This document shows positions 24,986-48,494 of a stretch of DNA of 64,000 bases, one piece after another. The position numbers and the translations under genes were made by a program. The notes under the pieces are model-generated. The model was not told where the DNA came from. It saw only the letters and a program-made list of their open reading frames with translations, and searched no databases. Each line of letters starts with the position of its first letter. Within the stretch, counting starts at the first letter, position 1. Source of the DNA: a virus. The stretch lies in IMG/VR virus record IMGVR_UViG_3300043811_000032, positions 1 through 64,000 of that record; one strand, written 5' to 3'.

Positions 24986-25693
24986 CTAACGACGCTTCTT
25001 GCCCGTGTAGGGCTGTTTCGGTTGTTCGACCGGCTTGTTTACTAGTCTCTCGCCGTCTGCGTCTTCCACGACATACTTGCCGGGCGGCTCACCGTCACTC
25101 TTCTCCAGCGGACCGATCAGCCCCGGCGGCAGTGACCGCTCCGCCTCAGCAGCCATCTCGAACGTCGGTCCCCACTTCTCGACAAACTCCTGAATGACCT
25201 GAGGGGTCGTGTTGCACATCGTTCGGCCGTGAGCCTCGCTGTGCGGGCGCGTGGCATTAAGGCAGTAAGCGAACAGCTTGGGCTCCATCGTCGGGTCCTT
25301 GAACAGCTCCGGTGTGCCGTCACGTCCTTGCAGGATCAGACCAAAGATGTCCTCAGGCAGTGGGTTCGGCGTGGGCAACGTCTCCTCGGCCTTGACGTCC
25401 ACGCGGGGATCGCCCCACATCGCCACGAAGTCACCGATGATGTCGGGCAGGCTGCGGTAGAAGCTCCACGGGTCGATGAAGATGTGCGGGTTGGTAGTGC
25501 CGAACACGTGCCCCCAGAGCCTCGCCTCCATGCCCAACTGCTTGAGAGTCTGCGGGTGATCGCGGACGGCCGCAGTCACCATCTCGCATATCTCGGTCAT
25601 GTGATTGTCGCTGCTCACTGTTCGCTCCTTGCTTCTCGGTGCGGATTGGTCAGCCCACGCTTCCATCAGGCGACCGGCTAGTAACTCGTTCAT
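24986..25693 (-). CDS. Unknown protein at downstream end of glycan cassette
   Basis: 235 residues. It contains an aromatic-rich segment (ARLWGHVFGTTNPHIFIDPWSFYRSLPDIIGDFVAMWGDP) and a Pro/Lys tail. It overlaps the glycosyltransferase-like gene by ATGA. No family recognised. Confidence 0.5.
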   Translation of the reverse strand: MNELLAGRLMEAWADQSAPRSKERTVSSDNHMTEICEMVTAAVRDHPQTLKQLGMEARLWGHVFGTTNPHIFIDPWSFYRSLPDIIGDFVAMWGDPRVDVKAEETLPTPNPLPEDIFGLILQGRDGTPELFKDPTMEPKLFAYCLNATRPHSEAHGRTMCNTTPQVIQEFVEKWGPTFEMAAEAERSLPPGLIGPLEKSDGEPPGKYVVEDADGERLVNKPVEQPKQPYTGKKRR

Positions 25694-26466
25694 CGTTGGT
25701 GGCTAGCGGGGAAGCCCCACTGCTCCGGCCGCAGGGCGTTGGTGTAGAGCAGGCAAGAGAAGCATGGTGTCATCCCGTGCTTGCGGCACAGTCGCTCGAC
25801 CATGAATCCATCGGCGCACCACAGTGGTCCGAATCGCTCCTCGCGCAGCAGGTCTGCCCGCACGGTCAACACCTCGAACTTGGTCACGAACGTCCGGCAC
25901 GAGTTGAACTTCCAGTCGTCCCACCCCTCCACCTTCTTGTACGTCGGCGGGCACATGTTGCTGCCGGCGATGTAGCCGTTGATGATGACCTTGGGCGACT
26001 CGCCCTTTAGCTGCGGTGCCTGCTGCCAACCGTGCTCCTGCGGTGCGATCGCCTCGAACGTCTTGCGGATCTCCAGCAGCCCCTGATCGTTCCAGAGGCA
26101 GTCATCGGTGGCGAAGGTGACGTAATGCTTCGGCGAGAAGAATCCCGGATCGACGCTGGCCATCTTTCGGTCTTCAACAAGCATCGCGTCGAGGAACCGG
26201 TCGCACACCCAATGACCGACGTTGTACTCCGCCTTGCTCTCACAGCGCCACGGCTTGATCCACTCGGCGTCCTTCAGATCACTAGAGAAGTCGGCCTGCT
26301 CAAATCGGCATCCGGCTCGTTTCTCCGTGCCTTTGTCATCCTCCACTCGCAGTATGTTATCGTCACAGAGCGGTCGCCACTCGACCTTCTGCCCGCGCAT
26401 GTGTTCACGGAGTATACCGGCGAACCGCAGACGGGCGAAGGGCATAAGGACAGTATGACGTATCAT
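25690..26466 (-). CDS. Glycosyltransferase-like protein (GT-A type)
   Basis: 258 residues. The start (VLMPFARLRFAGILREHM) and a central acidic segment (HYVTFATDDCLWNDQG, with a DDC in place of DxD), plus SNMCPPTYKK and LWCADGFMVERLCRKHG, resemble GT-A sugar transferases. Metal-binding and catalytic residues cannot be fixed by eye. Context supports a glycan role. Confidence 0.5.
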   Translation of the reverse strand: MIRHTVLMPFARLRFAGILREHMRGQKVEWRPLCDDNILRVEDDKGTEKRAGCRFEQADFSSDLKDAEWIKPWRCESKAEYNVGHWVCDRFLDAMLVEDRKMASVDPGFFSPKHYVTFATDDCLWNDQGLLEIRKTFEAIAPQEHGWQQAPQLKGESPKVIINGYIAGSNMCPPTYKKVEGWDDWKFNSCRTFVTKFEVLTVRADLLREERFGPLWCADGFMVERLCRKHGMTPCFSCLLYTNALRPEQWGFPASHQR

Positions 26467-26471
26467 AGATG

Positions 26472-26762
26472 CTACTCCTTCTGTTGCGTTGCCACTTCGG
26501 TCAACCTCTCGAACGCCTCAGTCATCCGCTCTTGGGTACTCGGTTTATCCTCCGGGATGTACATGCCTATGATGTACCGATTCAGCACGGCGTAGTCTAA
26601 ACCAGCCAACAACTGAATGTTCCCATCGACGTCCTCGCCACGCTCTAGCCGTTCCTTGTGCCCCTGCACCCAGGCATTGACGAAGTCACGTGCCATCTGA
26701 TGCTTGGCGAAGTAAGCCGTGGCAAAGTTGCCGCCATGAGTCAGGATTATCACGCGGGTCAC
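26472..26762 (-). CDS. Small protein, unknown
   Basis: 96 residues from GTG 26762. An N-terminal strand (TRVIILTHGGNFATAYFAK) resembles the start of a nucleotide-binding domain, then a helical charged remainder. No family recognised. Confidence 0.5.
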   Translation of the reverse strand: MTRVIILTHGGNFATAYFAKHQMARDFVNAWVQGHKERLERGEDVDGNIQLLAGLDYAVLNRYIIGMYIPEDKPSTQERMTEAFERLTEVATQQKE

Positions 26763-26767
26763 CGGAG

Positions 26768-27778
26768 TTACTCCTCGAATGTATGTTTCACAGACTCGTA
26801 AGAGAACTCCTCGGGCCGCAGGAACATGTTATCTCGGATGAACGCTCGCAGCGGTCCAGCAGTCAGGCAGTTACCCTCGGAGTCATACAGCGACGGATCG
26901 TGCGGCAGCACTTGCTGACATAGCTCATAGCCGAAACCTACCCGTTTGCCCTCGTCGAAGATCCGCCGCCGGAACTCGTCCATTTCGATCTTGAACGTCA
27001 ACGGCTTGCCGCGGAAGCCGACGCTGGCGCCGTCCATGCTGTGCTCGTGCCTGACCGTCGGCTTGCCCATCAGCAGGAACCGGCGACCGATGGCGGCGGT
27101 CATGAACGTGAAGATGCTCTCGCCCGTGTCGCTGGCGAACACGTCCGGCAGGATGCGGCCGTAAGCCTGCCGCAGATCCTCGCTGAACGCCTGGCTGTGC
27201 AGGTTGATGGTCCGACCGACCGGGATCACGAAGTCCTCACCCCGTGGTGGTCGCAGGCCCCACCACTCGTAGCCGGTGTCCTCGTCGACGCCGACGGCAA
27301 CCATCGCGTTCTGCGAGTGCAGCATCCCTTCACACGGCACGTCGTGTAAGAACCCTCCATCACTAATCTCGACGTTGGACATCGCCACGACTTCGGAACG
27401 GATACGTTGGTGCAAGTTACGGAAGACTCCAACACGCTCGTCCTCCTCGTGCGGCCACGGCCCGGCGCCGATGTCCACGCCACTGTCGAGGTAGACATAG
27501 CCGTCGAAGGCTCCCCACCGCTGCACGCACTGGTCCACCGTGTGATTACAGGTCGTGAAGACGGGCAGCACCTGATCGATCCAGTTGAAGCTGACCCGGT
27601 TGCCCAGCTTCTGCCGCAACACGCTCTTGCAGGTCCGCGTCGAACAGCAGCCACTGACCACCACCCGCCAGCCGTCACCCTCTTGACGCAGGCACGACTC
27701 GATGTGACGGACGTAGCGATCGAGTCGTTCCAATCCGCGCACGCCACATACGTTGAAGATACAGAGAAGTTTATTCAC
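26768..27778 (-). CDS. Glycosyltransferase-like protein (GT-A type)
   Basis: 336 residues from GTG 27778. The N-half follows a GT-A layout: LLCIFNVCGVRGLERLDRYVRHIE, WRVVVSGCCSTRTC, then FDGYVYLDSGVDIGAG, where DSGVD replaces DxD. The C-half has EWWGLRPPRGEDFVIPVGRTINLHSQ and TVRHEHSMDG. Probably transfers a sugar to a glycan built by this cassette; donor and acceptor unknown. Confidence 0.55.
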   Translation of the reverse strand: MNKLLCIFNVCGVRGLERLDRYVRHIESCLRQEGDGWRVVVSGCCSTRTCKSVLRQKLGNRVSFNWIDQVLPVFTTCNHTVDQCVQRWGAFDGYVYLDSGVDIGAGPWPHEEDERVGVFRNLHQRIRSEVVAMSNVEISDGGFLHDVPCEGMLHSQNAMVAVGVDEDTGYEWWGLRPPRGEDFVIPVGRTINLHSQAFSEDLRQAYGRILPDVFASDTGESIFTFMTAAIGRRFLLMGKPTVRHEHSMDGASVGFRGKPLTFKIEMDEFRRRIFDEGKRVGFGYELCQQVLPHDPSLYDSEGNCLTAGPLRAFIRDNMFLRPEEFSYESVKHTFEE

Positions 27779-27957
27779 TTGGCCGGCTCCCATGGTGAGA
27801 CGTTCTCTGGCACAGTCAACACCACAGTCCCCTTCTTGTCCGTGTCCAGCGCTATGGCTTTAGCGTTAGGGCGATACTCCTCGCCCCAGTCTGCCAGCTC
27901 CACCTTGGCGGTAGGATCACATTGCATTAACCGACTGATCAGTTCCATGACAGTCAC
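27775..27957 (-). CDS. Small conserved-type protein, unknown
   Basis: 60 residues from GTG 27957 with GGAGAG 5 bases upstream. The opening VTVMELISRLMQCDPTAKVELADW matches a widespread short family in phages and bacteria that begins xTVxELIxxLxxxPxDAxV. It overlaps the end of the interrupted radical SAM gene by 41 bases. Confidence 0.55.
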   Translation of the reverse strand: MTVMELISRLMQCDPTAKVELADWGEEYRPNAKAIALDTDKKGTVVLTVPENVSPWEPAK

Positions 27958-29718
27958 TGGTGCTCTCCTTCGGTTTGACTCTGTATCGCTGTGACCGCCG
28001 CCCGTGCCACATCGTCTCGATGCCCCACTGAATCGGGTCGCCCTCAGGCTTGGAAATCCGGCTCATCTGCTCAGTAACGTGGGGGAGCAAGTACGGGTAC
28101 TCTTCCTTAATGAACCCCTTGATCTCTTGCCGCAACTTGCTCGGGTCGCGAGCTAACCGCAGCCAGCTCGCTTCCTCCATCGGCCAAGTTACATCACCTA
28201 GCTCAGGATCGTAGTGGTCCCAGCCCTTGCCGTCGTACCCCTTCTGAGCGTGTTCCCAAGCCTTGCTGTACTCCTCACCGAAGAGGCTATGCTTGCACAA
28301 CCCGTCGCTCCTCCAGCAGTAGTTAGCTAGCGACTCGTAGAAGTCTGTGAACGTCTCACCGCTCTGTCTTGCCAGCAGGTTGGTCAGCCCGAACGCATGG
28401 AACGTCAGCATCAGCCAGTTCCACACGTAGACCTCGATGATGTCGTCGCCCGGCAGCGTCCTGGTCCGCCTGACCATCCGCTCGTACTCGCCCGTCGTTT
28501 CGCCCGGCTTGCTGTGGGCCACGAACATCGGGCTGTCGAACGTCTCGATGCCATGCTCGGTCAGGTACGCCGGATCGTTCATCGGGGCGTTGACGAACAC
28601 CGAGCAGTTCCACGTCATGATCGCCGGTGCCGGGTCCAGTGCCGCCAGCGTCTCCCACGTCCGCTTGAAGCTCTCGGCCGTCTCGCCGGGCAGGCCGAGG
28701 ATCAGCTCCGTGTAGCTCCGCAGGCCCTCGGCGTCGAAGCGGTCGATCAGTCCCTTGAAGCTGTCAAACTTCACGTTGCTCCTCTTGACGATCCGCAAGA
28801 CATCGGAGTCGAGGCTCTGCACAGATAAACTCACACCCCGTAGGAGTCCAGATGAGGCGAGTACCCTGGCTATCGGGATGATCCTCTCTGAAGAGGATTT
28901 CACCCATGTCAGCCCCAGTGCCTCGGGATATCCGGTTCGCTGCTTCGTCTCCGCGAGCTTCGTCGCTATCCACTGGTCACGCTCCTGGAACATCCCGAAG
29001 TTGGCGTCACAGCAGTCCACGTACGCGATCTCGTTGTCGCCGAACCACTCGATCTCCGCCTCAAGCCGCTCCTCGGAGAACTTCCGCACCTTGCTCTTCG
29101 TGGCCGATCCCCAGTCGCAGAAGGCTTCCTTCAGGTACAGGCGAACGGACATCCCCGGTTGGATTCCCAGGATGCCACCCACCTGTACCTACTCCTTTCT
29201 GCTAGCTTCCACATCAAGCCTGTTGTGAACGGCGACGGGATGCTTTCGAGGTCTTTGATACGTTCGCGCGGCAGTCCTTTACCTTCTCTCGTTTCGATAC
29301 CAAGGACCAGTCCACCACCTCGCCTGTAATAACTATCGGCTTGGAGAACTTCCGATAATGAAACCTCGCCTTCCCCGTGGACGAGTACATCAACATAGCT
29401 ATGCCGTTCAAAGAAACCTTCGGCATGGTCGGGCACCTCCGGGCCGCCGAACACCACTTTGAGCCGCGGGTTCAGTTCCTTGGCCCGCCTCGCCAGTCGG
29501 TTCGTCGCCCGCCAGTTCCAGCAGTAGCACGAGCACAGCAGCCAGTCGGAGTCGCGGCACGCCTCGGCGTCGGCGTCGATGTTCCGCTTGTCCACGAACG
29601 TCGGCTGCAGGTCCATGTCCACGAACTGCAGCGCGTAGCCGACCACCGTGGCGATGCTGCAGGGCAAGTGCAGCTGGTCGCCGAAGAAGACGCCGTACTG
29701 GGAGGAGGAGACTTTCAT
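27917..29718 (-). pseudogene. B12-binding radical SAM enzyme, interrupted inside the CxxxCxxC motif
   Basis: Two frames together make one B12-binding radical SAM protein. Frame 1 (29718-29131) holds the Rossmann-type B12 domain (VVGYALQFVDMDLQPTFVDKRN, LKVVFGGPEVPDHAEGF) and ends SNRGCPFACT-stop. Frame 2 (to 27917) resumes FCDWGSATKSKVRKF...CCDANFG, the usual continuation of this family, and ends with a helical tail. Removing 11 bases (29123-29133, TGAAGGAAGCC on minus) would restore CPFACTFCDWG exactly. Enzymes of this class methylate or rearrange sugars or unactivated carbons. As written it cannot make an iron-sulfur cluster unless ribosomes skip the insert; it may be a recent pseudogene. 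Confidence 0.8.
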
Positions 29719-29721
29719 GCC

Positions 29722-29949
29722 TCACCTTGCAGGTTCAACGATTGGCGTCTGTCCGCGAGATACGATTCGTCTTGCCTGTTGCATTGCCTCTTCCTTGGTC
29801 TCCGCATAAACGGATTGAAGGAAGGTTTTCATATCACCGCGGTTCGGGTTGAAGACCATCTCAAAAACGTTCCACTTCATCAACTTCGACCGGTCACCAT
29901 CAGCCTTTCGCCACACCTCCGGCGACTTGCTCACTTGTACCCAGCTCAT
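29722..29949 (-). CDS. Small protein, unknown
   Basis: 75 residues from ATG 29949. Trp/Lys-rich (MSWVQVSKSPEVWRKADGDRSKLMKWNVFEMVFNP) with a C-terminal helix (YAETKEEAMQQARRIV). No family. Confidence 0.5.
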   Translation of the reverse strand: MSWVQVSKSPEVWRKADGDRSKLMKWNVFEMVFNPNRGDMKTFLQSVYAETKEEAMQQARRIVSRGQTPIVEPAR

Positions 29950-30881
29950 AGTCCTAGCTCCTTGAACACCTTGGCCCACCGTTCCGGGTAACTCTCGCAG
30001 TCGTGATCCCGCCGCTGCCGTTCCAATGCACCTCGGGACAATGCCGGCAACTGCTCGGGCAGCCGGCTGCACCGCTCCACCAGATCGTCGAAGTCCCTGG
30101 CGATGATGCCGTTCACGCCGTCCTCGATCAGCTCCCGCAGTGCCCAGTGCTCCAGGCCGACAGTCGGGATGCCGAAGCTGGCCGCGTAGGGCACGCTGAT
30201 GAAGTGGGCCTTTGAACTCGGCAGGAGCAGCACGTCGGAGCGGCGGTGGATGTCGTCAAGTTCGGCGTCAGACAGATAGTCGTGGTGCATTTCAACGTCG
30301 TCCGGCCACACCGCCTTGCTGATCAGGTCCGCATCCTTCGGTGCTCGCAAAATCAGCTTGCAATGGAACTTTGTATGAAGCCGGATGAAGAGATCGCAGA
30401 CCAGTTGTCCGCCCCGGTCCTTCCACGCCTTCTGCTCCCTGTCGTTGTGCGAGCCCCAGAAGAGGAACGTGATTAGAAATGCCGGTCCAGTCTTGTATAA
30501 GAAGTCCTGCCTCGGCACCCCCACCGGCACGTGGAACCTCGGCTTGCTCGGCAGCAGCGTGGCGAACTCGTCTAGGGTCTTCTTCGTGTGGCTGCACACG
30601 CCGAGGCATGCCGGCTGGCGGTCGATGTTACTAACGAACTTGGCATCGCAGTAGTCAGTCAGCCAAAACGTGCTCTCCATGTAGAGAAGAAACGGACGAC
30701 CTGCCATAACGTAGTTGGCGATCCGCTCTTGGCTCCTGCTGTTCTCCAGTGCCAGTATGGTTACGTCCGCATGCCCATCGTCATGCTTCGGCAGCCACTC
30801 GAACTTCTTCGGCTGACCGCTCCGCATGTAGCGATACAGCGTGTGCTCCGGCAGTTGCGCGTCGATGGTGACCTTCAACAT
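29946..30881 (-). CDS. GT-B type glycosyltransferase (family 4-like)
   Basis: 311 residues. The C-half has the retaining GT-B nucleotide-sugar signature: LRAPKDADLISKAVWPDDVEMHHDYLSDAELDDIHRRSDVLLLPSSKAHFISVPYAASFGIPTVG, then a Glu-rich GVNGIIARD. The N-half is a shortened Rossmann domain. It probably adds one sugar to a lipid- or protein-linked acceptor. The N-terminal domain is divergent. Confidence 0.7.
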   Translation of the reverse strand: MLKVTIDAQLPEHTLYRYMRSGQPKKFEWLPKHDDGHADVTILALENSRSQERIANYVMAGRPFLLYMESTFWLTDYCDAKFVSNIDRQPACLGVCSHTKKTLDEFATLLPSKPRFHVPVGVPRQDFLYKTGPAFLITFLFWGSHNDREQKAWKDRGGQLVCDLFIRLHTKFHCKLILRAPKDADLISKAVWPDDVEMHHDYLSDAELDDIHRRSDVLLLPSSKAHFISVPYAASFGIPTVGLEHWALRELIEDGVNGIIARDFDDLVERCSRLPEQLPALSRGALERQRRDHDCESYPERWAKVFKELGL

Positions 30882-30885
30882 GATG

Positions 30886-30978
30886 CTACTTCCTGTTGTT
30901 CCGTATGATGCTTACTGCTATCAAGATTCCAAACAAGCACGCGCCGAGCCAGATTACTTGCTGATAGATTACTGGCAT
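30886..30978 (-). CDS. 30-residue single-pass membrane peptide
   Basis: ATG 30978 has TAGGAC 6 bases upstream and the stop is at 30888-30886. The product MPVIYQQVIWLGACLFGILIAV...RNNRK has one hydrophobic helix and a basic tail. It overlaps the preceding gene by 10 bases and its stop lies 5 bases before the next start. A real coupled microprotein is likely, though untested. Confidence 0.5.
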   Translation of the reverse strand: MPVIYQQVIWLGACLFGILIAVSIIRNNRK

Positions 30979-31901
30979 TTGAGTCCTACCAACCCCAGCA
31001 CCTTCGTCCAGAAGACCACCGGAGCGTGATTCCTTCGTACCTTGTCGCGGAGGCGGTCCGCCATTGCCTGTGCACGCGGCAGATCCGCCAGCAGGGCCTG
31101 CGCCTTAACGGCAGCGTCCGCAGCATCCGCATACTCTTCGTAGTCCTCTCCGGACATGAACCAGTGCCGTGAAGCCGAGTTCTGCGTCTCCAGCAGGCAG
31201 CAGCTAGCAGCACCGGCGTCGAGTACCCGACCCTTGACCTGCCTGGCGCCCGGCATATGGGCTACATTCAAGGCCACCTTATAGGTCGTCATCCGCTCGT
31301 AGTAGTCGCTGTAGTCCACCGTCGCGTCAACCCCCGGATGCTTGTCAGGGAAGTGCGGCCGGTGCGTGAAGGCCAGCCCAGCGGTGCGCCGCAACTCCTC
31401 GATGATCTCGTGCCGCGGGTGTCCCGGCCCTCCCGTGCCGCCGCTGAATCCGAAGTCCGTGGGTCGGTCCACCATCCGCTTGGTCTGCATGTCGGGGTAG
31501 CGGTTCGGAATCAGTTCGGACATGCAGTTGGGTCGGTTGGCTAGCGGCCAGTCCAAGCAGCCGTCGGTGTTCACCTGAGCCGAGAAGCAGCCGAGTCGGT
31601 CGTAGTGCCACAGGGTCTGCTCCCATCCTGGAATACCGCCGTCGAGCACCACGTGGACCAGTGGGGCTTGGTTTCGGAGCCTACGCAAGGTGGCGTCATC
31701 CAGTGCCCACTCTCGTGGTTCCAGATTCGGTCCAAGCGGTATGCCAAGGTAGACGATCACGTCGGCTTGGAAATCCGGCAACATCGCCCGGCCACCACCG
31801 ACGTGACTCCTCTGGTACCGGAACAGCCCCTTCTCCCACGGCCAGCTGTCGCTGACCAGATCCGCCAGACCGGGCATCGGGTTAAGGAACAGGACCTTCA
31901 C
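30969..31901 (-). CDS. Glycosyltransferase, tandem paralogue 1
   Basis: 310 residues from GTG 31901. This is one of four related genes (see 32512, 33703 and 35818). Shared blocks: VKVLFLNPMPG start, PWEKGLFRYQ, a VVLDGGIPGWEQTLWHYD segment, DFGFSGGTGG...HEIIEELRRTAGL and a C-terminal QVKGRVLDAGAASCCLLET...WFMSGEDYEEY that fits a glycosyltransferase family 4/1_2-type domain. It should transfer a sugar in a glycan path. Confidence 0.65.
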   Translation of the reverse strand: MKVLFLNPMPGLADLVSDSWPWEKGLFRYQRSHVGGGRAMLPDFQADVIVYLGIPLGPNLEPREWALDDATLRRLRNQAPLVHVVLDGGIPGWEQTLWHYDRLGCFSAQVNTDGCLDWPLANRPNCMSELIPNRYPDMQTKRMVDRPTDFGFSGGTGGPGHPRHEIIEELRRTAGLAFTHRPHFPDKHPGVDATVDYSDYYERMTTYKVALNVAHMPGARQVKGRVLDAGAASCCLLETQNSASRHWFMSGEDYEEYADAADAAVKAQALLADLPRAQAMADRLRDKVRRNHAPVVFWTKVLGLVGLKCQ

Positions 31902-32515
31902 TTGGTACATTCCACGTTGAGCGAGAGCAGTCGTCCTTTGCGATACTCCACCATGTCCTTGCAGTCACGGATGTGGGGTAGGTAGCAGGCACTGGCGTCA
32001 TCCACATCCGCGTGCTCGGTCTTGTCGCGGTCGTAGCGGCGGATGTCCTTGAAGCCGGCCTCCAGCAAGTCGCAGGTCAGGCTCGCCTCGTCCCAGCCCA
32101 TCTTGTGGTAATCTAGCGGCGTCCGCTGCCCGCCGTACAAGAATCCAAGGAACTCGTCCAACTTATGCGCCGGCCTTATCTGAAGCTCTCCGGTCTCCGA
32201 CTCACCCCAGGACAATCGCATGTGCGTCGCAAACACCCATCCTAGGTCCGGCACCGACAGCCGCAGCGTACCGCCCAGCTTAAGCACCTCGTGCCAGCGC
32301 CTGAGCACCGCCCGGTACTCGTGTCGCCCGGCATGCTCCAGCACGTGACAGGCATAGATGACGTCGACCGATTCTTCTACCCAGCCACTGACCCGACCGT
32401 GACCCTCCAATGTGAAGGCGTCTGCTACCACGTCCGGCTCGCAACGCGAGTCAGCGTCTACGTTGATCCATGGCGGCGGCAGTCTACGTTTCCCGCAGCC
32501 CAAATGAAGCTTCAC
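31898..32515 (-). CDS. SAM-dependent methyltransferase (class I)
   Basis: 205 residues from GTG 32515. KLHLGCGKRRLPPPWINVDAD is the SAM-binding motif of the small methyltransferase family, followed by VDVIYACHVLEHAGRHEY and LKLGGTLRLSVPDLG. Similar enzymes in polysaccharide clusters O-methylate sugars. Lies between two paralogous glycosyltransferases. Confidence 0.8.
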   Translation of the reverse strand: MKLHLGCGKRRLPPPWINVDADSRCEPDVVADAFTLEGHGRVSGWVEESVDVIYACHVLEHAGRHEYRAVLRRWHEVLKLGGTLRLSVPDLGWVFATHMRLSWGESETGELQIRPAHKLDEFLGFLYGGQRTPLDYHKMGWDEASLTCDLLEAGFKDIRRYDRDKTEHADVDDASACYLPHIRDCKDMVEYRKGRLLSLNVECTK

Positions 32516-38494: not shown

Positions 38495-38661
38495 TTGCAA
38501 GCCCTCGCAAGAAGGACTTGCAAAGCCGTCATGATGATTACTTGATTTGACATCACAAAGCTAAAGCATTCACCCGAGTTAGTATACTTATCAGAGTTCG
38601 CGAACTTCTCCGTTAGTTTAATGGCCTCAGCTAGGATTCTGATCGCTTCTTCAATCTCCAT
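38491..38661 (-). CDS. 56-residue helical protein, unknown
   Basis: From ATG 38661 to TGA 38493-38491, overlapping the next gene's GTG start (GTGA). The sequence is one amphipathic helix (MEIEEAIRILAEAIKLTEKF) followed by a hydrophobic segment (VMSNQVIIMTALQVLLA). It ends exactly at the coupled junction, which supports that it is real. Confidence 0.55.
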   Translation of the reverse strand: MEIEEAIRILAEAIKLTEKFANSDKYTNSGECFSFVMSNQVIIMTALQVLLARACK

Positions 38662-38674
38662 GTTTCATGCTCTC

Positions 38675-39598
38675 CTACAGTTGCTGCTCCACCGTTGCAC
38701 CTTCGTCGTCGAACTCTACCGCCTCGGGCCTGCAGTCCAGTCTCTCCATCGCCAGCATCACGTCCAGCCGCCGCTCCTCGGGAACGCACAGCAGCAGGTA
38801 GCCGCCGAGTCCCGCCCCGCACAGCTTGCCGCCCCAAGCACCAGTATCCATCGCGGCGGCGTACAGTATGTCCGCTCGCTCCGTCGTGCAGTTGCTAGAG
38901 CGCTTCTTCGCGTTCCAAGCATAGTGCAGATGCCTGCCGAACTTCTCAAGGTCGTCGTTGAGCAGTGCCGAAGTCATCACGAACGCTTGCCCCTTGAGGA
39001 TCATCATCGTCTCGAACTGACTGCCAACGTTCTCCGCCAACCGCTTCTGTATCCCAGCATGCGTGCGGGCGGCACCGGTGTGGACCAGCACCAGGCTACG
39101 TTGTAACGCCTCCCTGGTCTGGTCCGGCAGCACCACCGGCGAGACTTGGATCACCTCCTTAGTAAGAGAAGAGTCAGCTGCATTTGCATGCGGTGCCTCC
39201 TTCTTGCTAGGGAACTCGATCAGGTTCAGGCCGCCGAACGCCGCTGCATACTGGTCCTGCTTGCCGCCCGCTATCCGCAAGTGCTTCCGTTCCATCACAT
39301 ACGCGGCCTCAGCAAGATCGTGCTTGCTCCGCTCGATGCCGAGGCGGGCATCCATCGCCCTTATGATCGCCACGCACACACTGGAGCTGCCGCCAAGACC
39401 GCTGCCGGGAGGGGCGTCACACTTGACGTTGACGCTCAGCTCGCCGTTGTACGTCAGCTCGCAATGAGCATAGCGTTTGATGGTTGCGCTCAGCACCGCG
39501 CCGCCGTGGACGTCGCTGAACTCTGGCAGGTCCGTACCACCGCCGGCGAAGCTGACCCGCAACGGGGCTCGGGTACGGACGGTCGAGTGGTGAATCAC
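38675..39598 (-). CDS. GHMP kinase, D-glycero-D-manno-heptose 7-phosphate kinase-like
   Basis: 307 residues from GTG 39598. GHMP motif 1 RTRAPLRVSFAGGGTDLPEF, motif 2 PPGSGLGGSSSVCVA (ATP loop) and motif 3 WGGKLCGAGLGGYLLL match HddA/LmbP-type sugar 1-kinases. It phosphorylates a heptose 7-phosphate or related sugar, supplying a nucleotide-sugar path. A heptose substrate is family inference only. Confidence 0.85.
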   Translation of the reverse strand: MIHHSTVRTRAPLRVSFAGGGTDLPEFSDVHGGAVLSATIKRYAHCELTYNGELSVNVKCDAPPGSGLGGSSSVCVAIIRAMDARLGIERSKHDLAEAAYVMERKHLRIAGGKQDQYAAAFGGLNLIEFPSKKEAPHANAADSSLTKEVIQVSPVVLPDQTREALQRSLVLVHTGAARTHAGIQKRLAENVGSQFETMMILKGQAFVMTSALLNDDLEKFGRHLHYAWNAKKRSSNCTTERADILYAAAMDTGAWGGKLCGAGLGGYLLLCVPEERRLDVMLAMERLDCRPEAVEFDDEGATVEQQL

Positions 39599-39819: not shown

Positions 39820-39820
39820 G

Positions 39821-40786
39821 CTATATCCTCACGTTGGGGTACTCGGATGCGAACCAATCGTACGCACGATTGAGCGCCTCGCCCAGCGGCTCGAACCGGA
39901 AGTCGGGCAGCAGGGACCGCAGCAGGCTCGTGTCGGTCGGGCGGCGGCGCTGGCCGTTGGGCTTGTCGGTCTCGTACGTTGGAAACGGCTCGCGTCGTCC
40001 AACCGCCTTGTGGAGCTGGTCCACCAACTCACGGATCGTCACCGATTCACCGCTGCTCACGATCAGCCGCGGTGGTAGCTCGGGTAGGTCGACCAGCCGC
40101 ATCACGATCCTCGCCACGTCATCACTGCTCAAGAACTCTCGCTCGCTGCTGCCGTCGCCCCACACCCGCAGGGGCTCGCCGTTCTTGCGTGCCTGGTAGA
40201 GCTTATGGATCAAGGCGGGTACCACGTGGCAGGTGCCGAGGCGGTAGTTGTCGTGCGTACCGAAGATGTTGGCCGGGATGAGCGTGCATCCCTGGAGCCC
40301 GTGCTGCTTAGCCGCTCCGTCGATCAGCACGTCAATCATCCGCTTGGCGTGACCGTAGTGCCAGTTCTGGACCGGAGGCATTCCTCGGTGCAGATCGCCT
40401 TCCTCCAAGCCTCGTATGTTTGCACGTTCTGCGTCCAGAGCGACATAAGCAGGCATCGCACACACGCTGCTGAACGCGATCAACCGTGCCTTGTGACGGA
40501 CGCAGGCATCGACCACGTTGCAGGCCATCAACAGGTTCTTGTGGCACAGGTCGTAGGGCGCCTCCGTCTGCTGGCCGATGCCGCCCACGAAGGCCGCGGC
40601 GTGGATGACAACGTCGGGCTTGACTGCATCAAAGGCTTCATCAATATGTGACGGATAGCACAGGTCACCGAACTTGCCAGCATAAGCACCCTTGACACGA
40701 ACCGAGAACACCATCTCGTGCTTCGTCTCGACCCGCCGCAGGGCCTGTCCTACAAGTCCGTCGCTGCCCGTACAAAGTATCCTCAT
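39821..40786 (-). CDS. GDP-L-fucose synthase-like enzyme (extended SDR)
   Basis: 321 residues from ATG 40786. RILCTGSDGLVGQALRRV is the NADP-binding motif; the catalytic FSSVCAMP Ser and WHYGHAKRM Tyr/Lys follow; ANIFGTHDNY...HVVPALIHKLYQA is typical of the Fcl/WcaG family. It epimerises and reduces a 4-keto-6-deoxy nucleotide sugar. It could act after the 3-dehydrase in this cassette. Confidence 0.85.
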   Translation of the reverse strand: MRILCTGSDGLVGQALRRVETKHEMVFSVRVKGAYAGKFGDLCYPSHIDEAFDAVKPDVVIHAAAFVGGIGQQTEAPYDLCHKNLLMACNVVDACVRHKARLIAFSSVCAMPAYVALDAERANIRGLEEGDLHRGMPPVQNWHYGHAKRMIDVLIDGAAKQHGLQGCTLIPANIFGTHDNYRLGTCHVVPALIHKLYQARKNGEPLRVWGDGSSEREFLSSDDVARIVMRLVDLPELPPRLIVSSGESVTIRELVDQLHKAVGRREPFPTYETDKPNGQRRRPTDTSLLRSLLPDFRFEPLGEALNRAYDWFASEYPNVRI

Positions 40787-40959
40787 GGCTGCTCTTCCGT
40801 AGAGATGGCGAACACTGTTCCAGACAACTTGGCCGTCTTGAAGTTCTCGATGAGCACTTGCTTCACTGCCTCTGTCTGCTTCAAGTCGCTGATCTTAAAC
40901 GGCCCCACCGACTGCAGACCGTGTTCCTGTGTCAGGATGCAGTACGTCACTAGTACCAT
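40783..40959 (-). CDS. 58-residue protein overlapping two genes
   Basis: ATG 40959 has AGGG 8 bases upstream, and the stop at 40785-40783 overlaps the next ATG (ATGA). It overlaps the last 65 bases of the upstream radical SAM gene in another frame. The product (MVLVTYCILTQEHGLQSVGPFKI...TVFAISTEEQP) has no motif. The coupled junction supports it. Confidence 0.45.
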   Translation of the reverse strand: MVLVTYCILTQEHGLQSVGPFKISDLKQTEAVKQVLIENFKTAKLSGTVFAISTEEQP

Positions 40960-42583
40960 CACCGTTGCCCTCCAGCAGGTTGCGTTGCAGTCGCTTGCCG
41001 TTCATCGCCTCGACCTGTGCCTTCGCGTCGGTGCCGAACTCCCGCTCGACGAGTGCCAGGTACTCGGGACGGGAGAAGTAGAAATTGTGAGCGTAGTCCC
41101 GGAATCGCAGCACTTGTCCGCTGGTTAGATGCTTCGTGGCCATCGGAGTGCAGTCGCGGCTGTGCTGGCTGAACGCGCTCCACTCCAGACCATGGTGGCT
41201 GGGTGTCTGCTTCCACAGGGCACTGCCTGGATATGGCATAGCGCTGTAGAAGTTGGCCCACGGCGTGTTCAACATCGTCGCCAACTTCAACGTCTGATCC
41301 ATCGACGTGTGGTCGTCCTCGGGTAGACCAAAGATGTAGTTGGCGAGCACGTGAATGCCAGCCGCTTGGATGCGGTCAACGCACTGACGGATCTGATCAT
41401 CGCCACCCTTGTAGTCTTTGTCCACGCCTGCTCGCACGTTGGTCGCTGCCGACTCGATGCCCAGCGCCAGCCAGCGGAAGCCGGCACGACGCATCCGTTC
41501 CAGCAGCCCACGGTCGTTGGCCGTATCCACCCGTGCGTACGCCCATACATTCAAAACTTCAGCTGGATCCTTGATCCGCTGCATGATGGCGTCGCACACG
41601 CCCTCGACGTGGCGCTTGTTCAGGACGAACATCTCGTCGGCGATCTTGATGTTGCCGACACCGTGATCGTAGTGGAGCTTGGCGATCTGCTGGCCAACGT
41701 GCTCGGGGCTCCAGGTGCGGTAGCTGTTGGGCACCTCAGCACCCGGCTTGAACTTGCCGGCCAGCTTCAGTGCGACCTTCTCGCCCTCCTTGAACGGCGA
41801 TTGTATACAGCAGAAGCTGCAGGCGAACGGACAACCAAGACTGGTGTAGATGGCGGCGTAGGGCGAGCGGGTTCTTGTTGCCTTGTTGCCTTTGTACGTT
41901 ATCCCACCAGCATCTTGAGCAAAGTACTCCAATCTATGAGCGACATCCCAAGTAGGTGAGGTCCAGCCGTGCCAATTGTGACAGCGATACTTACCGTAGC
42001 TCTCGATGCCGTGCATCGCCGGCATGTCCGCGTTCACGTCCGTCACGTTCGGGGCGCTGGTCGTCTCGAAGTAGGTCCGTGCGGCGAACGGGCTGGGACC
42101 GTAGAAGCCGATGCCACGGACGTCGTGATGGTTACGCCCTTGGAGCAACTCCGCGATGCTGGTGCAGCCCTCGCCCGTGCACACGTAGTCAGCACCTGAC
42201 TCCCGCAGCGTGCGGTCGGGCAACGCGGCGACGTGTCCGCCTACCATCACCACCTTGGTCGCCTCGTCCCACGCCTTGGCTGAGTAGCTGATCCGGTACG
42301 CCTCGGGCATCGTCTGCGTGCTGGCCGATGGGTTCTGGCCGTAGCACACAACGGCTGTGAGTCGGGGCTTGCGGTCCGCCGCCACCTTGCCGGCGTCACC
42401 AGCGTCCAGCCCCTCGGCGTTGGCATCGAGGATCTCCACGCTGAAGCCCTTGCGACGGACGTACTCGGCGATCAGACCGGCCCACACAGGCGGCTCTATC
42501 GCGGTCAGGTCTTCGGCGAGGTCTTGATAAACTTCTCGCCTGCCTCCCGGTGAGACTAACAACAAGTCGATTTGCTTGGTCAT
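40895..42583 (-). CDS. B12-binding radical SAM enzyme
   Basis: 562 residues from ATG 42583 (ATGA overlap). The B12 domain spans about 1-180 (LLLVSPGGRREVYQDLAEDLTAIEPPVWAGLIAEYVRRKGF, VMVGGHVAALPDRTLRES, GEGCTSIAELL). The radical SAM core has TSLGCPFACSFCCIQ, supplying the CxxxCxxC cluster. The C-half keeps RRAGFRWLALGIESA and GIHVLANYIFGLPEDDHTS. Such enzymes add or shift carbon groups on sugars or lipids. It is intact, unlike the copy at 27917-29718. Confidence 0.9.
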   Translation of the reverse strand: MTKQIDLLLVSPGGRREVYQDLAEDLTAIEPPVWAGLIAEYVRRKGFSVEILDANAEGLDAGDAGKVAADRKPRLTAVVCYGQNPSASTQTMPEAYRISYSAKAWDEATKVVMVGGHVAALPDRTLRESGADYVCTGEGCTSIAELLQGRNHHDVRGIGFYGPSPFAARTYFETTSAPNVTDVNADMPAMHGIESYGKYRCHNWHGWTSPTWDVAHRLEYFAQDAGGITYKGNKATRTRSPYAAIYTSLGCPFACSFCCIQSPFKEGEKVALKLAGKFKPGAEVPNSYRTWSPEHVGQQIAKLHYDHGVGNIKIADEMFVLNKRHVEGVCDAIMQRIKDPAEVLNVWAYARVDTANDRGLLERMRRAGFRWLALGIESAATNVRAGVDKDYKGGDDQIRQCVDRIQAAGIHVLANYIFGLPEDDHTSMDQTLKLATMLNTPWANFYSAMPYPGSALWKQTPSHHGLEWSAFSQHSRDCTPMATKHLTSGQVLRFRDYAHNFYFSRPEYLALVEREFGTDAKAQVEAMNGKRLQRNLLEGNGDGTSDVLHPDTGTRSAVGGAV

Positions 42584-42828
42584 TCTGATGCTGGCCCGCC
42601 GCAAGAGTAGCGATGCACTTCTACGTCAACACCCAAAGCCTTCAACTCATCGGCTTGTTCCGTCGCCTGTTTCTCGTCGGTATAGGCATAATCTTCCATC
42701 TTGATCGGGTTCTTCACCGTTGGCTGCATTGGTAGAAAAGCCAGTGCCTCACGACTCCACACCAAACTACCATAGCCGATGACGTAGATATCTGGAGGTA
42801 GTTCCTCGCCAATCTTCTCCTCGCTCAC
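42580..42828 (-). CDS. Small protein, unknown
   Basis: 82 residues. IYVIGYGSLVWSREA resembles only the opening of gamma-glutamyl cyclotransferases; the rest is too short for that fold. No family. Confidence 0.5.
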   Translation of the reverse strand: MSEEKIGEELPPDIYVIGYGSLVWSREALAFLPMQPTVKNPIKMEDYAYTDEKQATEQADELKALGVDVEVHRYSCGGPASE

Positions 42829-43316
42829 GTTACTACCCTCATAGACTTCTCGCCGGCCACCAGTTGCTCCGCCAGTCTGCGGGTCTCCTCCTTCACCTCT
42901 TCGGCGGTCCAGTAGTATTGCTGTCGACCGAACAGCCCACCTAGCCTCAATGAGTAAGACGGAGACATGTCATCGCAGTGGGCGCAGTCAAAACCGAACC
43001 ACCAGACGTCGTCCGGCTCCCCTGGATTCGGCACATGACAAACGCAACCGGCACACTGGTGAGCGTAGGTGATACCACCGTGTGCTTCTAGGTGCTCAGT
43101 CTCCGGCTCGCTATATCCTTTGCCGTGTAGCGGATGCTCTGGCGGTATCCCAACGTAACCGCACCACGAACCTCCACCACCGCGATGGATGATGCACGGG
43201 AAACCGGCGTGCTCGAACTGTTGTCGGTCCGGTCCCTCGTCCTGCCAAGGCCCGGGACCCCAGCTCGTCTTATCCGCATACTGTTCGCAAGAAGGACAAG
43301 AATGCTGCTCGCTCAT
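42825..43316 (-). CDS. Widespread phage/bacterial Cys-rich protein, unknown function
   Basis: 163 residues from ATG 43316. The blocks WCGYVGIPPEHPLHGKGYSE, HGGITYAHQCAGC and DVWWFGFDCAHCDD follow a pattern found in many phages and bacteria but without assigned function. Cys and His could bind metal. Role in this cassette unknown. Confidence 0.65.
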   Translation of the reverse strand: MSEQHSCPSCEQYADKTSWGPGPWQDEGPDRQQFEHAGFPCIIHRGGGGSWCGYVGIPPEHPLHGKGYSEPETEHLEAHGGITYAHQCAGCVCHVPNPGEPDDVWWFGFDCAHCDDMSPSYSLRLGGLFGRQQYYWTAEEVKEETRRLAEQLVAGEKSMRVVT

Positions 43317-44542
43317 GATGCTACCCTCGCTGGTGCTAGTTCGTTCAACTCCTCGCACAGTCGCAATATCGCCTCTCGTTCCAGCCCCGGATGATTGCCG
43401 ACGTACCATCCGTAGTGGTGGATGTGCTCGGCGACCGGGAACCGCTCGTGGTAGTGCTCGCCGTAGATCCGCTTCAGGTACGGCTGCCTAAGTTGATTGC
43501 CACCACCGGCAACACCTCGCCTAAACTCAACACCGTGACGTCGCAGTAGTCCCTCCACCGCATCCCGCAGGGTTGTATCAGGGCGCTGGAGGACGAGGGT
43601 GAAGGCGTAACTAGAGCACCCTTCGATGGCAAAGTCCGTTTGGTAGACTTCCGGGTCGAGGTGCTGCAGGAACGTCTTGAGATTCTCGTTGCGTTTCGCA
43701 TTGTTCTCGTCCAGTCGCTTGAGCTGCTCGATGCCCAGCACCGCGCCGATCTCAGTGTTGCGGCAGTTGAAGCCAGGCAGGGCGAACACAAACTCGGGGT
43801 TGAGGTCGGGATGCTTGTGGTGCACGTGCCGCTTGTAGCCATCGCCGCCGCACTCGCGGGTCATGCCGTGGCCCCGCAGCATCCGCACCGTGCGGGCAAA
43901 CTCGTCGTCGTCAGTCGCTACGATCCCACCCTCTATCGTCGTCATGTGATGGGCGTAGTACGTCGAGAAGTTCGATGCGAGTCCGAACGAGCCAACCTTC
44001 TTGCCCCAATATAGGGTCTCGGTGTTGATTGCACCGACAGCCTCACAGCAATCCTCAATGACCACCGGCCCCCAATCTTCCGGCGACTTGTTACAGACCA
44101 CGTCCAGCGCCGCGTTGTTGAAGGCATTGTATCCCATGCAATGCGTTGGGAAAATTGCGAGCGGTCGCTCATCCTTGAGCGACTTCGCTACCGACGATCC
44201 ATCCATCCCCAGCGTCCGTCTGTCCACGTCCACGAACACCGGCTCCAGCCCGGCGTGCAACACGCTCGTGATGTCGCTACTCCACGTCAGCGTTGGCACC
44301 ACCACCTTGCCCGGTCCGCGTAGCTCCTTGAGGGCGTGCATAGTCAGGAGGTTAGCGCTGCTGCCCGAGTTGACGAACACCGAGTGCTTGACTCCCAGCC
44401 ACTCGCTGAACTTGGCCTCGAACTCGCGGACCTTCGTGCCCTGCGTCAATCGCGGATCGTCCTGCGAGAGCAGCGCCTTCACCGCGTCGAGGTCCGAGCG
44501 GTGGAAGTTCTGTTGCATCAGGGGCCAGTTGAACTTGGTCAC
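43313..44542 (-). CDS. DegT/DnrJ-family sugar 3-dehydrase-like (PMP-dependent E1/ColD type)
   Basis: 409 residues from GTG 44542. The fold is the DegT/DnrJ/EryC1 aminotransferase: SVFVNSGSSANLLTMHAL, PTLTWSSDITSVLHAGLEPVFVDVD and VVIEDCCEAVGA. In the PLP-lysine motif the lysine is replaced by His (FSTYYAHHMTTIEGG), as in CDP-4-keto-6-deoxyglucose 3-dehydrase and ColD. Those enzymes use PMP to remove a 3-OH rather than transaminate. So the product may be a 3,6-dideoxy nucleotide sugar. Substrate nucleotide (CDP or GDP) cannot be set. Confidence 0.85.
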   Translation of the reverse strand: MTKFNWPLMQQNFHRSDLDAVKALLSQDDPRLTQGTKVREFEAKFSEWLGVKHSVFVNSGSSANLLTMHALKELRGPGKVVVPTLTWSSDITSVLHAGLEPVFVDVDRRTLGMDGSSVAKSLKDERPLAIFPTHCMGYNAFNNAALDVVCNKSPEDWGPVVIEDCCEAVGAINTETLYWGKKVGSFGLASNFSTYYAHHMTTIEGGIVATDDDEFARTVRMLRGHGMTRECGGDGYKRHVHHKHPDLNPEFVFALPGFNCRNTEIGAVLGIEQLKRLDENNAKRNENLKTFLQHLDPEVYQTDFAIEGCSSYAFTLVLQRPDTTLRDAVEGLLRRHGVEFRRGVAGGGNQLRQPYLKRIYGEHYHERFPVAEHIHHYGWYVGNHPGLEREAILRLCEELNELAPARVAS

Positions 44543-44805
44543 TTGCTCAGCTTTCTCTTGAGTCGAGTGTCTGGTCCACCAGTTGGATAGCAACGATACC
44601 CACCGCCACACGCCTCCCGTCCCTGTTCCGGCTTGTCGATGCGGTTGTCACGTCGCACAGTAGCATTCTTCGGCAACCGAAAGTGCTTCTTCCTCACAGT
44701 GGTATCTCCGTTCAGCCAGTCGGGATCGTTGCGTGCATAGTAAGCATCCAACGACGACCACCGCTTCCAGGTCCCATCCTGCCAAACCGTGATGCACTCA
44801 TCCAT
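44539..44805 (-). CDS. Small protein, unknown
   Basis: 88 residues from ATG 44805. Trp-rich N-half (ITVWQDGTWKRWSSLDAYYARNDPDW) and basic C-half. No family. Confidence 0.5.
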   Translation of the reverse strand: MDECITVWQDGTWKRWSSLDAYYARNDPDWLNGDTTVRKKHFRLPKNATVRRDNRIDKPEQGREACGGGYRCYPTGGPDTRLKRKLSK

Positions 44806-45136
44806 AAGTGATCGGACTCCTGATCTCACCCTTGCGCTTGGCGTCGCGGTGCCAGTCTTCGAGGATCACGTTCTCGCCGCTGCTGATGTCGGCCGTCGCC
44901 AGCCAGGCGCTGAACGCCTTGAGCTTGGCCTTGTTCGCAGGGTCACTGCTCTGCAGCACCTTGGCCACCGCCTCCTGCAACAGCCGCTTATTCTCCTGCT
45001 CCTCGTCCGTTAGCTGCCGCTTCTGCTCCACTCGGAACCATCGGTGCAGAGCGATCAGGTTGCGGAAGGTCTGACTCATCAGCTCTCCGAAGAGCTTCTG
45101 GACGTGTGCCTTCTCGGCCCGTTGCTCCTGGTTCAC
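44798..45136 (-). CDS. Helical protein, unknown
   Basis: 112 residues, mostly helix (QRAEKAHVQKLFGELMSQTFRNLIALHRWF, EEQENKRLLQEAVAKVL). No motif. Confidence 0.5.
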   Translation of the reverse strand: MNQEQRAEKAHVQKLFGELMSQTFRNLIALHRWFRVEQKRQLTDEEQENKRLLQEAVAKVLQSSDPANKAKLKAFSAWLATADISSGENVILEDWHRDAKRKGEIRSPITYG

Positions 45137-45765
45137 AACAGATCCCCCTGCTGCACCAGCACGGTCGAGCCATCGGACTCCACTGCGTCCACAAACTCCT
45201 CGTAGACGGCGCCGTCACGACCCGGGCCACCGCACAAGTCGACGACCGGAATGTTGGTAAGCATCTGGTCCAAGGCATGACAGTAGTTGCCGCTGTGCTG
45301 CGGTCCCGGATCGAGCGGCTCGGTAGCACCGGTCTGCGTGACGATGATGACCTTGATCGGCTTGCCCGTCATCTGCTCGTACTTGTCGAGATGGTTGACG
45401 AGCTGGTCGGTCGCACAGAGCAGGAAGTTGATCCGCGGCACCACGCAGATCGGCAGCATCCCCGCCATCGCCATGCCCATCGCCATGCCGAGCTGCGTGT
45501 TCTCGAACACCGGCAGCTCTAACTTGCGGTCGTCGGGCAGGCCCAGCTCCGCGATCTGCTTGCTGATGGCATGAGCAGGATAGCGAACGCCTTGGCCAAG
45601 AAAGATTGCGTTGGACTGCTCGGCCAGCAGCTTCATCCCGCGCATGATCTCGGTGCGGTAGTTCATCTTTGGTAGCTGAACTAGAGTCTCCCCGTGGGAC
45701 ATAGCCTCTTGCAGCCGCTTGATGCGACCGGCATCTTTCGACCGAGGGTCAGTACAGTCGTGCAT
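45133..45765 (-). CDS. TPP-dependent E1 beta-like subunit (transketolase pyrimidine-binding)
   Basis: 210 residues with AGGAG before ATG 45765. The pyrimidine-binding domain is visible: AIFLGQGVRYP...LPVFENTQLGMAMGMAMAGMLPICVVPRINFLLCATDQLVNH with the conserved Glu of FENTQLG, plus HSGNYCHALDQML. The transketolase C-terminal domain is missing. It pairs with the alpha-like subunit at 46060-46743, separated by a small unknown gene. Together they would transfer an activated aldehyde (for instance acetaldehyde or glycolaldehyde) to a sugar. Confidence 0.75.
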   Translation of the reverse strand: MHDCTDPRSKDAGRIKRLQEAMSHGETLVQLPKMNYRTEIMRGMKLLAEQSNAIFLGQGVRYPAHAISKQIAELGLPDDRKLELPVFENTQLGMAMGMAMAGMLPICVVPRINFLLCATDQLVNHLDKYEQMTGKPIKVIIVTQTGATEPLDPGPQHSGNYCHALDQMLTNIPVVDLCGGPGRDGAVYEEFVDAVESDGSTVLVQQGDLL

Positions 45766-45774
45766 CGTTGCTCC

Positions 45775-46041
45775 TCACTGTTGCTCTTCTCGCTGTATGA
45801 GTTGGTCCAGCGGGCTCAGCTCCTCGCTCGCCAGCCAGTGCATCGTCATCCGTCGGAAGTTCCGCTGTCGCAACGTCGGTCGTCGCTCTGGCTCGTGCGG
45901 CCCCTCGTAAGTATCCCGCCTCAGTACCACCGGCTTGCCCATCACAAAGTTGGGCGGTCCTAGCAGATCATCGATTTCCCTGAGCGTCAGGCCCTGCATC
46001 CGCAACTGGAACCGGCTGCGGTCGCGTGCGTAGGCTGGCAT
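45775..46041 (-). CDS. Small protein, unknown
   Basis: 88 residues. SRFQLRMQGLTLREIDDLLGPPNFVMGKPVVLRRDTYEGP resembles a small helix-turn-helix, but no family is recognised. It lies between the two TPP-enzyme subunits. Confidence 0.5.
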   Translation of the reverse strand: MPAYARDRSRFQLRMQGLTLREIDDLLGPPNFVMGKPVVLRRDTYEGPHEPERRPTLRQRNFRRMTMHWLASEELSPLDQLIQREEQQ

Positions 46042-46059
46042 TCCGTTGCCCTCGTTAGT

Positions 46060-46743
46060 TTACATCCCGCCTGTAGGTTGAAGTTGCTTGGCGCCAAAGT
46101 CGATAAAGCGACCAGCACCCATGTGCGGCCAGCCGAGTTCGTAGCGGTAGCGCACGCTAGTCAGTCTTCTGCTGCCGTACATCGCCTCGATGCCGGGGTC
46201 AGAAGACCTGGTCTTACCCCATACCTCCGCCGTCGGCGTGTTCACGCACTTGCCGTTATCCTCGACCACGTAGGTGATCGGCAGATCGTGGTTGGCGGCA
46301 TAACGGGTGCACTCGGCGAACGCTCCCATCTCCGCGGCCATGTCGCCGACGAAACACCAAACGTGTCCTAGCTTGTAGACTCCGTCATTATCTCGGCTCA
46401 GCAACTTCTCGTGTTTGATCGACCACGCCACACCTAGTGCGATGGGCAGGTTGCCGCCGCAGATGGCACTGCTGTAGAACCGCCGCTCGGGCACGCAGAT
46501 CGTGATGGACTCGCCCTTGAGGATCTTCGCCATCAGCTCGTCGCGGGGGATGCCGTGGAGTAACGCATGGTAGTGACTTCTCCACGTTGAAAATACGTAG
46601 TCATGCGGCTTGACTCGCTTGAAGACCTCGATGAGCTGATCTTCGTTGCCAGCGCTCAGGTGCACTGGTGCGCGGATCTTACCGGCGTTGTAGGCCGTGG
46701 CGACCTCTTGCTCGAAGTCGATCAGTTCCTGCTTGGTGACCAC
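46060..46743 (-). CDS. TPP-dependent E1 alpha-like subunit
   Basis: 227 residues from GTG 46743. The TPP/Mg motif is GDMAAEMGAFAECTRYAANHDLPITYVVEDNGK, the counterpart of GDG...N in pyruvate dehydrogenase E1 alpha. Other blocks are THR-like RSHYHALLHGIPRDEL, SAICGGNLPIALGVAWSIKH. It is shorter than E1 alpha (about 360 aa). No E2 or E3 gene is near, so it is more likely a sugar-path transketolase or acetaldehyde transferase than an oxidative dehydrogenase. Confidence 0.75.
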   Translation of the reverse strand: MVTKQELIDFEQEVATAYNAGKIRAPVHLSAGNEDQLIEVFKRVKPHDYVFSTWRSHYHALLHGIPRDELMAKILKGESITICVPERRFYSSAICGGNLPIALGVAWSIKHEKLLSRDNDGVYKLGHVWCFVGDMAAEMGAFAECTRYAANHDLPITYVVEDNGKCVNTPTAEVWGKTRSSDPGIEAMYGSRRLTSVRYRYELGWPHMGAGRFIDFGAKQLQPTGGM

Positions 46744-48387: not shown

Positions 48388-48494
48388 CGATCCAACCCAT
48401 AGAACCAACGACCAAGCGGGGACCACGATGGATCAAACAAAATACCCCATACAACCAACCCCATCGCTGCCCAGAAGAACCAAGGAGCATCCAT
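48384..48494 (-). CDS. 36-residue membrane peptide between terminase halves
   Basis: ATG 48494 lies just after the ATPase stop and its TGA overlaps the nuclease ATG (ATGA). The product MDAPWFFWAAMGLVVWGILF...GRWFYGLDR is a single Trp-rich membrane helix. Its exact fit between the coupled genes supports translation. Role unknown; it may anchor nothing and simply be a microprotein, or it may link packaging to the membrane. Confidence 0.6.
   Translation of the reverse strand: MDAPWFFWAAMGLVVWGILFDPSWSPLGRWFYGLDR

Follow-up and report, generated by a model that had tools for sequence, protein, structure and literature searches.

In the yersiniose pathway, the 3-deoxygenation step is carried out by an RfbH-type 3-dehydrase. 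YerE of the same pathway is a single flavoprotein dependent on thiamine pyrophosphate (TPP) (PMC4753412), and the protein pairs Plm8/9, Pau11/12 and AviB1/B2, which resemble the E1 component of pyruvate dehydrogenase (PDH), have been assigned to two-carbon branching at C4 from pyruvate (PMC4802897, PMC4753412). Virome surveys count pdhB and E1 subunits as tricarboxylic acid cycle genes (PMC3877843). Phage sugar cassettes are already known, as in cyanophage S-SM2, and mycobacteriophage glycosyltransferases are described as decorating capsid and tail (Freeman et al. 2023, as cited in PMC12619734). Here we analyse 64,000 nucleotides of phage DNA (the window; bases 1-64000 of the 98,691-base IMG/VR virus record IMGVR_UViG_3300043811_000032), in which a 21-kb cassette combines an E1-like pair with nucleotide-sugar enzymes and glycosyltransferases. 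The cassette is very probably a dedicated nucleotide-sugar tailoring module, and no paper describing this gene set was found in the open-licence literature.

Core enzymes of the cassette

The cassette runs from 46743 down to 25690, with nearly all good reading frames on the minus strand, which carries every cassette gene cited below. The genes lie close together, and many overlap by 4 nt. The gene at 46060..46743 encodes a short, 227-aa form of an E1-alpha-like TPP subunit (E1_dh, 2.9e-13), for which the top profile match is PDH E1-alpha (1e-16) and in which the G-D-M and D-N motif columns are invariant. The gene at 45133..45765 encodes an E1-beta-like TPP subunit of 210 aa comprising the pyrimidine domain only (Transket_pyr; 6e-9 to PDH E1-beta in the PDB), with an invariant Glu87 and QH motif and the catalytic Glu kept in 17/17 sequences. 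The pair thus has its TPP-binding residues in place. The family median lengths of about 200 aa for E1-alpha and 180 aa for E1-beta fall short of full-length PDH subunits, and the E1-beta family is without the beta C-terminal domain. In a phylogenetic tree, the short E1-alpha proteins form one monophyletic group apart from PDH E1-alpha, with support of 100/100.

Auxiliary central-carbon metabolism, with the pair acting as a viral PDH or transketolase, is what database names such as 'transketolase central region' (S-SM2), matches to PDH E1 models and the KEGG pdhB assignments of virome surveys (PMC3877843) would suggest. However, no E2 partner (2-oxoacid_dh) was found in 49 virus records, and the pair is in the constant company of nucleotide-sugar enzymes. 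Transketolases score far below PDH E1, and the PDH E1 that the profile prefers belongs to a separate clade. We therefore rejected this role as very improbable.

The gene at 43313..44611 encodes a ColD-type sugar 3-dehydrase of the pyridoxal phosphate (PLP) fold (DegT, 1.5e-62; best PDB match ColD, 1.3e-47). Histidine replaces the catalytic lysine, with an AHH motif at this position in 16/16 sequences (the phage protein and 15 relatives), aligned to the histidine of ColD. A B12-binding radical S-adenosylmethionine (SAM) enzyme (40895..42604; B12-binding and Radical_SAM domains) has AprD4, which NCBIfam calls a radical SAM diol-dehydratase, as its top PDB profile match (2.6e-23), and its CX3CX2C cysteines are invariant. 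Two short-chain dehydrogenases/reductases (SDRs) are present, one resembling GDP-fucose synthase (39821..40786; Epimerase, 2.1e-38; Fcl model, 7e-44) and one, belonging to the core module, resembling GalE (37559..38500; Epimerase, 1.9e-31). The gene at 38675..39598 encodes a GHMP sugar kinase (GHMP_kinases) like HddA of the heptose 7-phosphate kinase family. HddA is its best NCBIfam model (1.8e-50), at 172 bits against an equivalog cut-off of 600, and its top PDB profile match is the heptose-7-phosphate kinase 4n3o (3.9e-67). The TPP-dependent subunits, the sugar 3-dehydrase and the GHMP kinase of the original prediction are thus all borne out.

Two B12 radical SAM genes had also been predicted, and only the one at 40895..42604 is intact. 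The second, of KedN5 type, is divided between a B12-binding half (29131..29718; B12-binding, 3.5e-10; KedN5 model, 2.2e-27) and a radical SAM half in another frame (27917..29182; Radical_SAM, 1.3e-7; KedN5 model, 2e-43). An 11-nt insert, TGAAGGAAGCC (minus strand, 29133 to 29123), separates the second cysteine codon of the CX3CX2C motif from the third and causes a stop and a frame change, so that in this assembly the gene does not encode an intact motif and the B12 domain in one protein. Together with the CCTTC that follows, the insert forms a near-palindrome, and a relative in locus L102 with 57% identity has a single intact reading frame across the site. The insert may be a true mutation or an assembly error; recoding is less likely.

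Conservation in viruses and bacteria

A scan of IMG/VR with the E1-alpha protein gave 198 relatives, 80 of which were kept as virus loci, and a bacterial and archaeal scan with one genome per species gave 39 true members, with 41 ordinary PDH-E1-alpha loci from the same scan as controls. Members occur in Nitrospira, Pelagibacteraceae, SAR116, Betaproteobacteria, Verrucomicrobia, Planctomycetes, Bacteroidota, Omnitrophota, Parcubacteria and others. E1-beta stands beside E1-alpha in 78/80 virus and 39/39 bacterial loci, and deoxysugar enzymes recur around the pair: the ColD-like dehydrase is near E1-alpha in 47/80 virus and 26/39 bacterial loci, the SDR of the 37559 type in 52/80 and 23/39, and the B12 radical SAM enzyme in 30/80 and 23/39. 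The Fcl-like SDR is found in 35/80 virus loci and the kinase in 25/39 bacterial loci. Each of these partners occurs in 0 or 1 of the 41 control loci (Fisher p of about 1e-6 to 1e-30 for co-occurrence with E1-alpha), and the clustering is therefore not due to chance. All five core genes (E1-alpha, E1-beta, 3-dehydrase, B12 radical SAM and SDR) are found together in 23 virus, 19 bacterial and 0 control loci.

The reading of 25690-46743 as a single cassette of sugar-active genes is upheld by the shared strand, the tight packing and the co-occurrence of the core elsewhere. The KedN5-type radical SAM gene, the methyltransferases and most of the glycosyltransferases do not belong to this conserved core and are lineage-specific extras.

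Terminase_6N scored over its cut-off in 16/49 virus records (this one counted), in a screen that misses this phage's own TerL, and the E1 gene is also known from two cultured cyanophages. The virus loci are thus not merely mislabelled host contigs. In the E1-alpha tree, switches between virus and cell labels number at least 9 when counted on well supported branches, indicating that the module has moved repeatedly between viruses and cells.

The proposed sugar pathway

Because the association of these genes persists in viruses and in different bacterial phyla, and because E1-type branching pairs are known from antibiotic pathways, it is well supported that a dedicated pathway makes an unusual, probably branched deoxysugar. 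The unusual-sugar pathway of the original prediction stands to this extent, although not as a self-sufficient one, given that the record contains no nucleotidyltransferase.

In the proposed mechanism, the starting compound would be a 4-keto-6-deoxy sugar in nucleotide-activated form, which is probably of heptose (HddA/HddC) type and would come at least in part from the host. The ColD-type dehydrase would remove the 3-hydroxyl of the sugar, after which the E1-alpha/E1-beta enzyme would use pyruvate to add an acetyl (two-carbon) unit at the 4-keto carbon, giving a C-branched sugar. By analogy with the antibiotic pairs, such C2 branching from pyruvate, at C4, is the most likely role of the E1 pair. 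The core B12 radical SAM enzyme could C-methylate the sugar, and its nearest solved relative, AprD4, makes a second, radical deoxygenation possible. The SDRs would act on ketones by reduction or epimerisation.

The same cassette could instead use other TPP chemistry, involving another 2-oxoacid donor, acyloin formation or decarboxylation, and the sugar would then carry no acetyl or hydroxyethyl branch. The deep separation of the short E1 family from characterised PDH E1-alpha, and its lack of the beta C-terminal domain, would fit such chemistry. Against it, every E1-alpha/beta precedent that we found in a deoxysugar pathway is a C2 branching from pyruvate, and we consider this alternative unlikely.

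The HddA, HddC and GmhA enzymes constitute the route to GDP-D-glycero-D-manno-heptose. A nucleotidyltransferase is found in 19/39 bacterial loci, in 12 of them as a short, same-strand form, of which the member tested (in locus L108) best matches HddC; other extras of the bacterial loci are GmhA (5/39) and an RmlC-like epimerase (10/39). This enzyme set makes a heptose scaffold the best guess, with scores below equivalog cut-offs. Among 48 virus records, only 1 has a nucleotidyltransferase over the cut-off, which suggests that the viruses use activated host sugars.

Glycosyltransferases, methyltransferases and the acceptor

Eight glycosyltransferase-like proteins had been predicted, of which seven are supported: four GT-B paralogues, one GT4-like protein and two GT-A proteins. 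Three of the GT-B proteins match Glyco_trans_1_2 (30969..31910, 2.4e-12; 32512..33462, 1e-9; 33703..34782, 3.5e-7, with 48% identity to the 32512 protein), and the fourth (35818..36696) is a divergent paralogue of this set (BLASTP 3e-23 to the 32512 protein). Searches of viral_contigs and phages found no relative of the 32512 protein and do not inform on its origin. The GT4-like protein is encoded at 29946..30881 (Glyco_trans_1_4, 8.5e-7). One GT-A protein is GT2-like (34701..35516; profile match to 5tze, 3.7e-6, and also to 8bz4), with a low-confidence structure model (predicted local distance difference test, pLDDT, 67); the other (26768..27793) has an AlphaFold model with a pLDDT of 81 and Foldseek matches to SpsA (1.5e-6) and TarP. 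The eighth protein (25690..26466) has no Pfam or PHROGs match, and its assignment is unsupported. The two predicted methyltransferases are of unequal standing: a SAM methyltransferase at 31898..32515 matches Methyltransf_11 over the cut-off (3.8e-5), and a Methyltransf_24-like protein at 36693..37562, possibly an O-methyltransferase, gives a weak match (2.5e-5; 25.5 bits against a cut-off of 26.3).

The cassette has the terminase (TerL, 48496-49311) on one side and the portal (10012-12036) and capsid genes, including that of the head protein (6768-8012), on the other, placing the pathway in the late (packaging and morphogenesis) gene block of the phage. By a simple hydropathy count, polytopic membrane proteins are encoded in 20/25 bacterial but 0/59 virus loci, and no membrane protein, and thus no GtrABC-type flippase or membrane glycosyltransferase, is predicted in this cassette. 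This agrees with the earlier suggestion of a role beyond simple O-antigen conversion. The lack of export proteins speaks more for an acceptor in the cytoplasm, namely a virion protein, than for the host envelope, and the soluble glycosyltransferases, the late-gene position and the known glycosylation of mycobacteriophage virions also fit a virion protein. Capping of the sugar and its linkage to this acceptor, most likely virion proteins, would be the task of the methyltransferases and the seven glycosyltransferases.

Remodelling of the host envelope would place the same branched sugar on lipopolysaccharide or capsule, so that receptors are masked or other phages are kept out. In bacteria, the module does occur in glycan loci that also encode polytopic membrane proteins, and cyanophage S-SM2 has a comparable sugar cluster with an unproven target. 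Neither this cassette nor the 59 virus loci encode a flippase, polymerase, ligase or any further polytopic membrane protein, however, and a surface change would be of little help at the late stage at which the cassette is placed. We regard envelope remodelling as a lesser possibility, though the most serious competitor to a virion acceptor.

A further alternative is DNA hypermodification, with the hydroxymethylated thymines in the phage's DNA as the attachment site of the sugar. The phage does have genes at 56718-62705, next to a family A DNA polymerase, for a thymidylate-synthase-family protein, a radical SAM/SPASM protein, a TAGT glycosyltransferase and two tandem 5-hydroxymethyldeoxyuridine (5-hmdU) DNA kinases (HMUDK). 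These genes make up a thymine hypermodification module with glycosyltransferase and kinases, and the TAGT resembles T4-type DNA glucosyltransferases. This module lies about 10 kb from the sugar module, with the terminase between them, and the two are not linked elsewhere: of 48 further virus records that contain the sugar module or its radical SAM gene, 0 have HMUDK or TAGT, and the sugar module is found in 0/22 HMUDK loci. DNA as the acceptor is thus quite unlikely.

Phage-run nucleotide-sugar tailoring and glycosyl transfer, yielding a C2-branched sugar on a heptose-type scaffold with virion protein as the acceptor, has in our judgement a little less than an even chance of being correct in full. 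The order of steps, the C2 branching, the heptose scaffold and the virion acceptor are the parts that we infer. Several points weigh against it. We know of no member of the short E1 family with a known product, and the likeness to the AviB and Plm pairs is by their descriptions rather than by sequence. The HddA and Fcl matches fall below the curated NCBIfam cut-offs. No nucleotidyltransferase (NTP_transferase) was found in the whole 98.7-kb record and no 4,6-dehydratase was identified in the phage, which makes the substrate a guess. Since phages are generally poor in membrane proteins, the absence of these argues only moderately for the virion as acceptor.

Genome setting

The phage nature of the record is clear from its terminase, portal and head protein genes and from a Phage_capsid protein encoded in the other 35 kb. 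The terminase is followed by a nuclease-like part (47305-48426), according to our own reading of the sequence. No close relative was found among 50,697 phage records, and the portal and polymerase matches have only about 25% identity, to phages of many hosts.

A SpoVG-domain protein (5230-5868) is encoded near the head gene, and a 1093-aa protein (1701-4982) carries a ribosome modulation factor domain. A PHROG match of the latter to phosphoheptose isomerase lacked Pfam confirmation and was not used. An N6/N4 DNA methylase (50872-53169) is apparently split by an intein-splicing domain, which scores below the Pfam cut-off. Within the capsid and tail genes, two genes (L002:3987-4823 and L002:9319-10701) encode mutually related proteins that read like GT-A glycosyltransferases and may act on the virion.

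Comparison with known systems

We tentatively propose an apparently undescribed, widely shared route in which the short E1 pair acts with the ColD-type dehydrase, the B12 radical SAM enzyme and an SDR to convert a heptose-type nucleotide sugar to a C-branched, possibly C-methylated deoxysugar, which many phages, having no export genes, would use for their own virions, and to which part of the 'pyruvate dehydrogenase' genes of viromes would belong. Some virus-borne 'pyruvate dehydrogenase E1' genes may be members of this module; if so, certain viral 'pdhA/pdhB' or 'transketolase' genes should no longer be read as central-carbon metabolism. The route would also provide testable chemistry, a branched sugar made via TPP, PLP and B12 radical enzymes, for a gene set that recurs in many viruses and in bacteria from the sea, soil and fresh water (SAR11, SAR116, Nitrospira, Burkholderiales, Verrucomicrobia, Planctomycetes), and define a family of phage glycosylation systems with an acceptor open to direct search.

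Virion glycosylation in mycobacteriophages is the nearest parallel for the acceptor; within the open-licence literature, no dedicated rare-sugar biosynthesis is known to be described for it, and the glycan of the present phage is a prediction. Cyanophage S-SM2 and ACG-2014f also carry nucleotide-sugar and glycosyltransferase clusters, with a ColD-like 'aminotransferase' in that of ACG-2014f. The E1-like gene of the S-SM2 cluster (L003:14983-16191) encodes fused E1 alpha and beta parts in 402 aa, annotated as a 'transketolase central region-containing protein'. Unlike the phage described here, S-SM2 has its own annotated nucleotidyltransferases and phosphoheptose isomerases.

Among individual enzymes, ColD (GDP-4-keto-6-deoxymannose 3-dehydrase) is the best structural relative of the phage dehydrase, sharing the PLP fold and the histidine in place of lysine, although the two are only distantly related. 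Like the route proposed here, the yersiniose pathway (RfbH-type 3-dehydrase and YerE) combines 3-deoxygenation with subsequent TPP-dependent C4 branching of a nucleotide sugar, but the phage has E1-type subunits, and among PDB structures its dehydrase resembles ColD more closely than it does the CDP-sugar 3-dehydrases. AviB1/AviB2 of avilamycin and Pau11/12 (= Plm8/9) of paulomycin provide, as here, a PDH-E1-alpha/beta-like pair within a deoxysugar pathway. Those pairs belong to actinomycete antibiotic clusters, whereas the phage-type pair, of about 200 and 180 aa, is accompanied by a ColD-type dehydrase and a B12 radical SAM enzyme and occurs in viruses and diverse bacteria.

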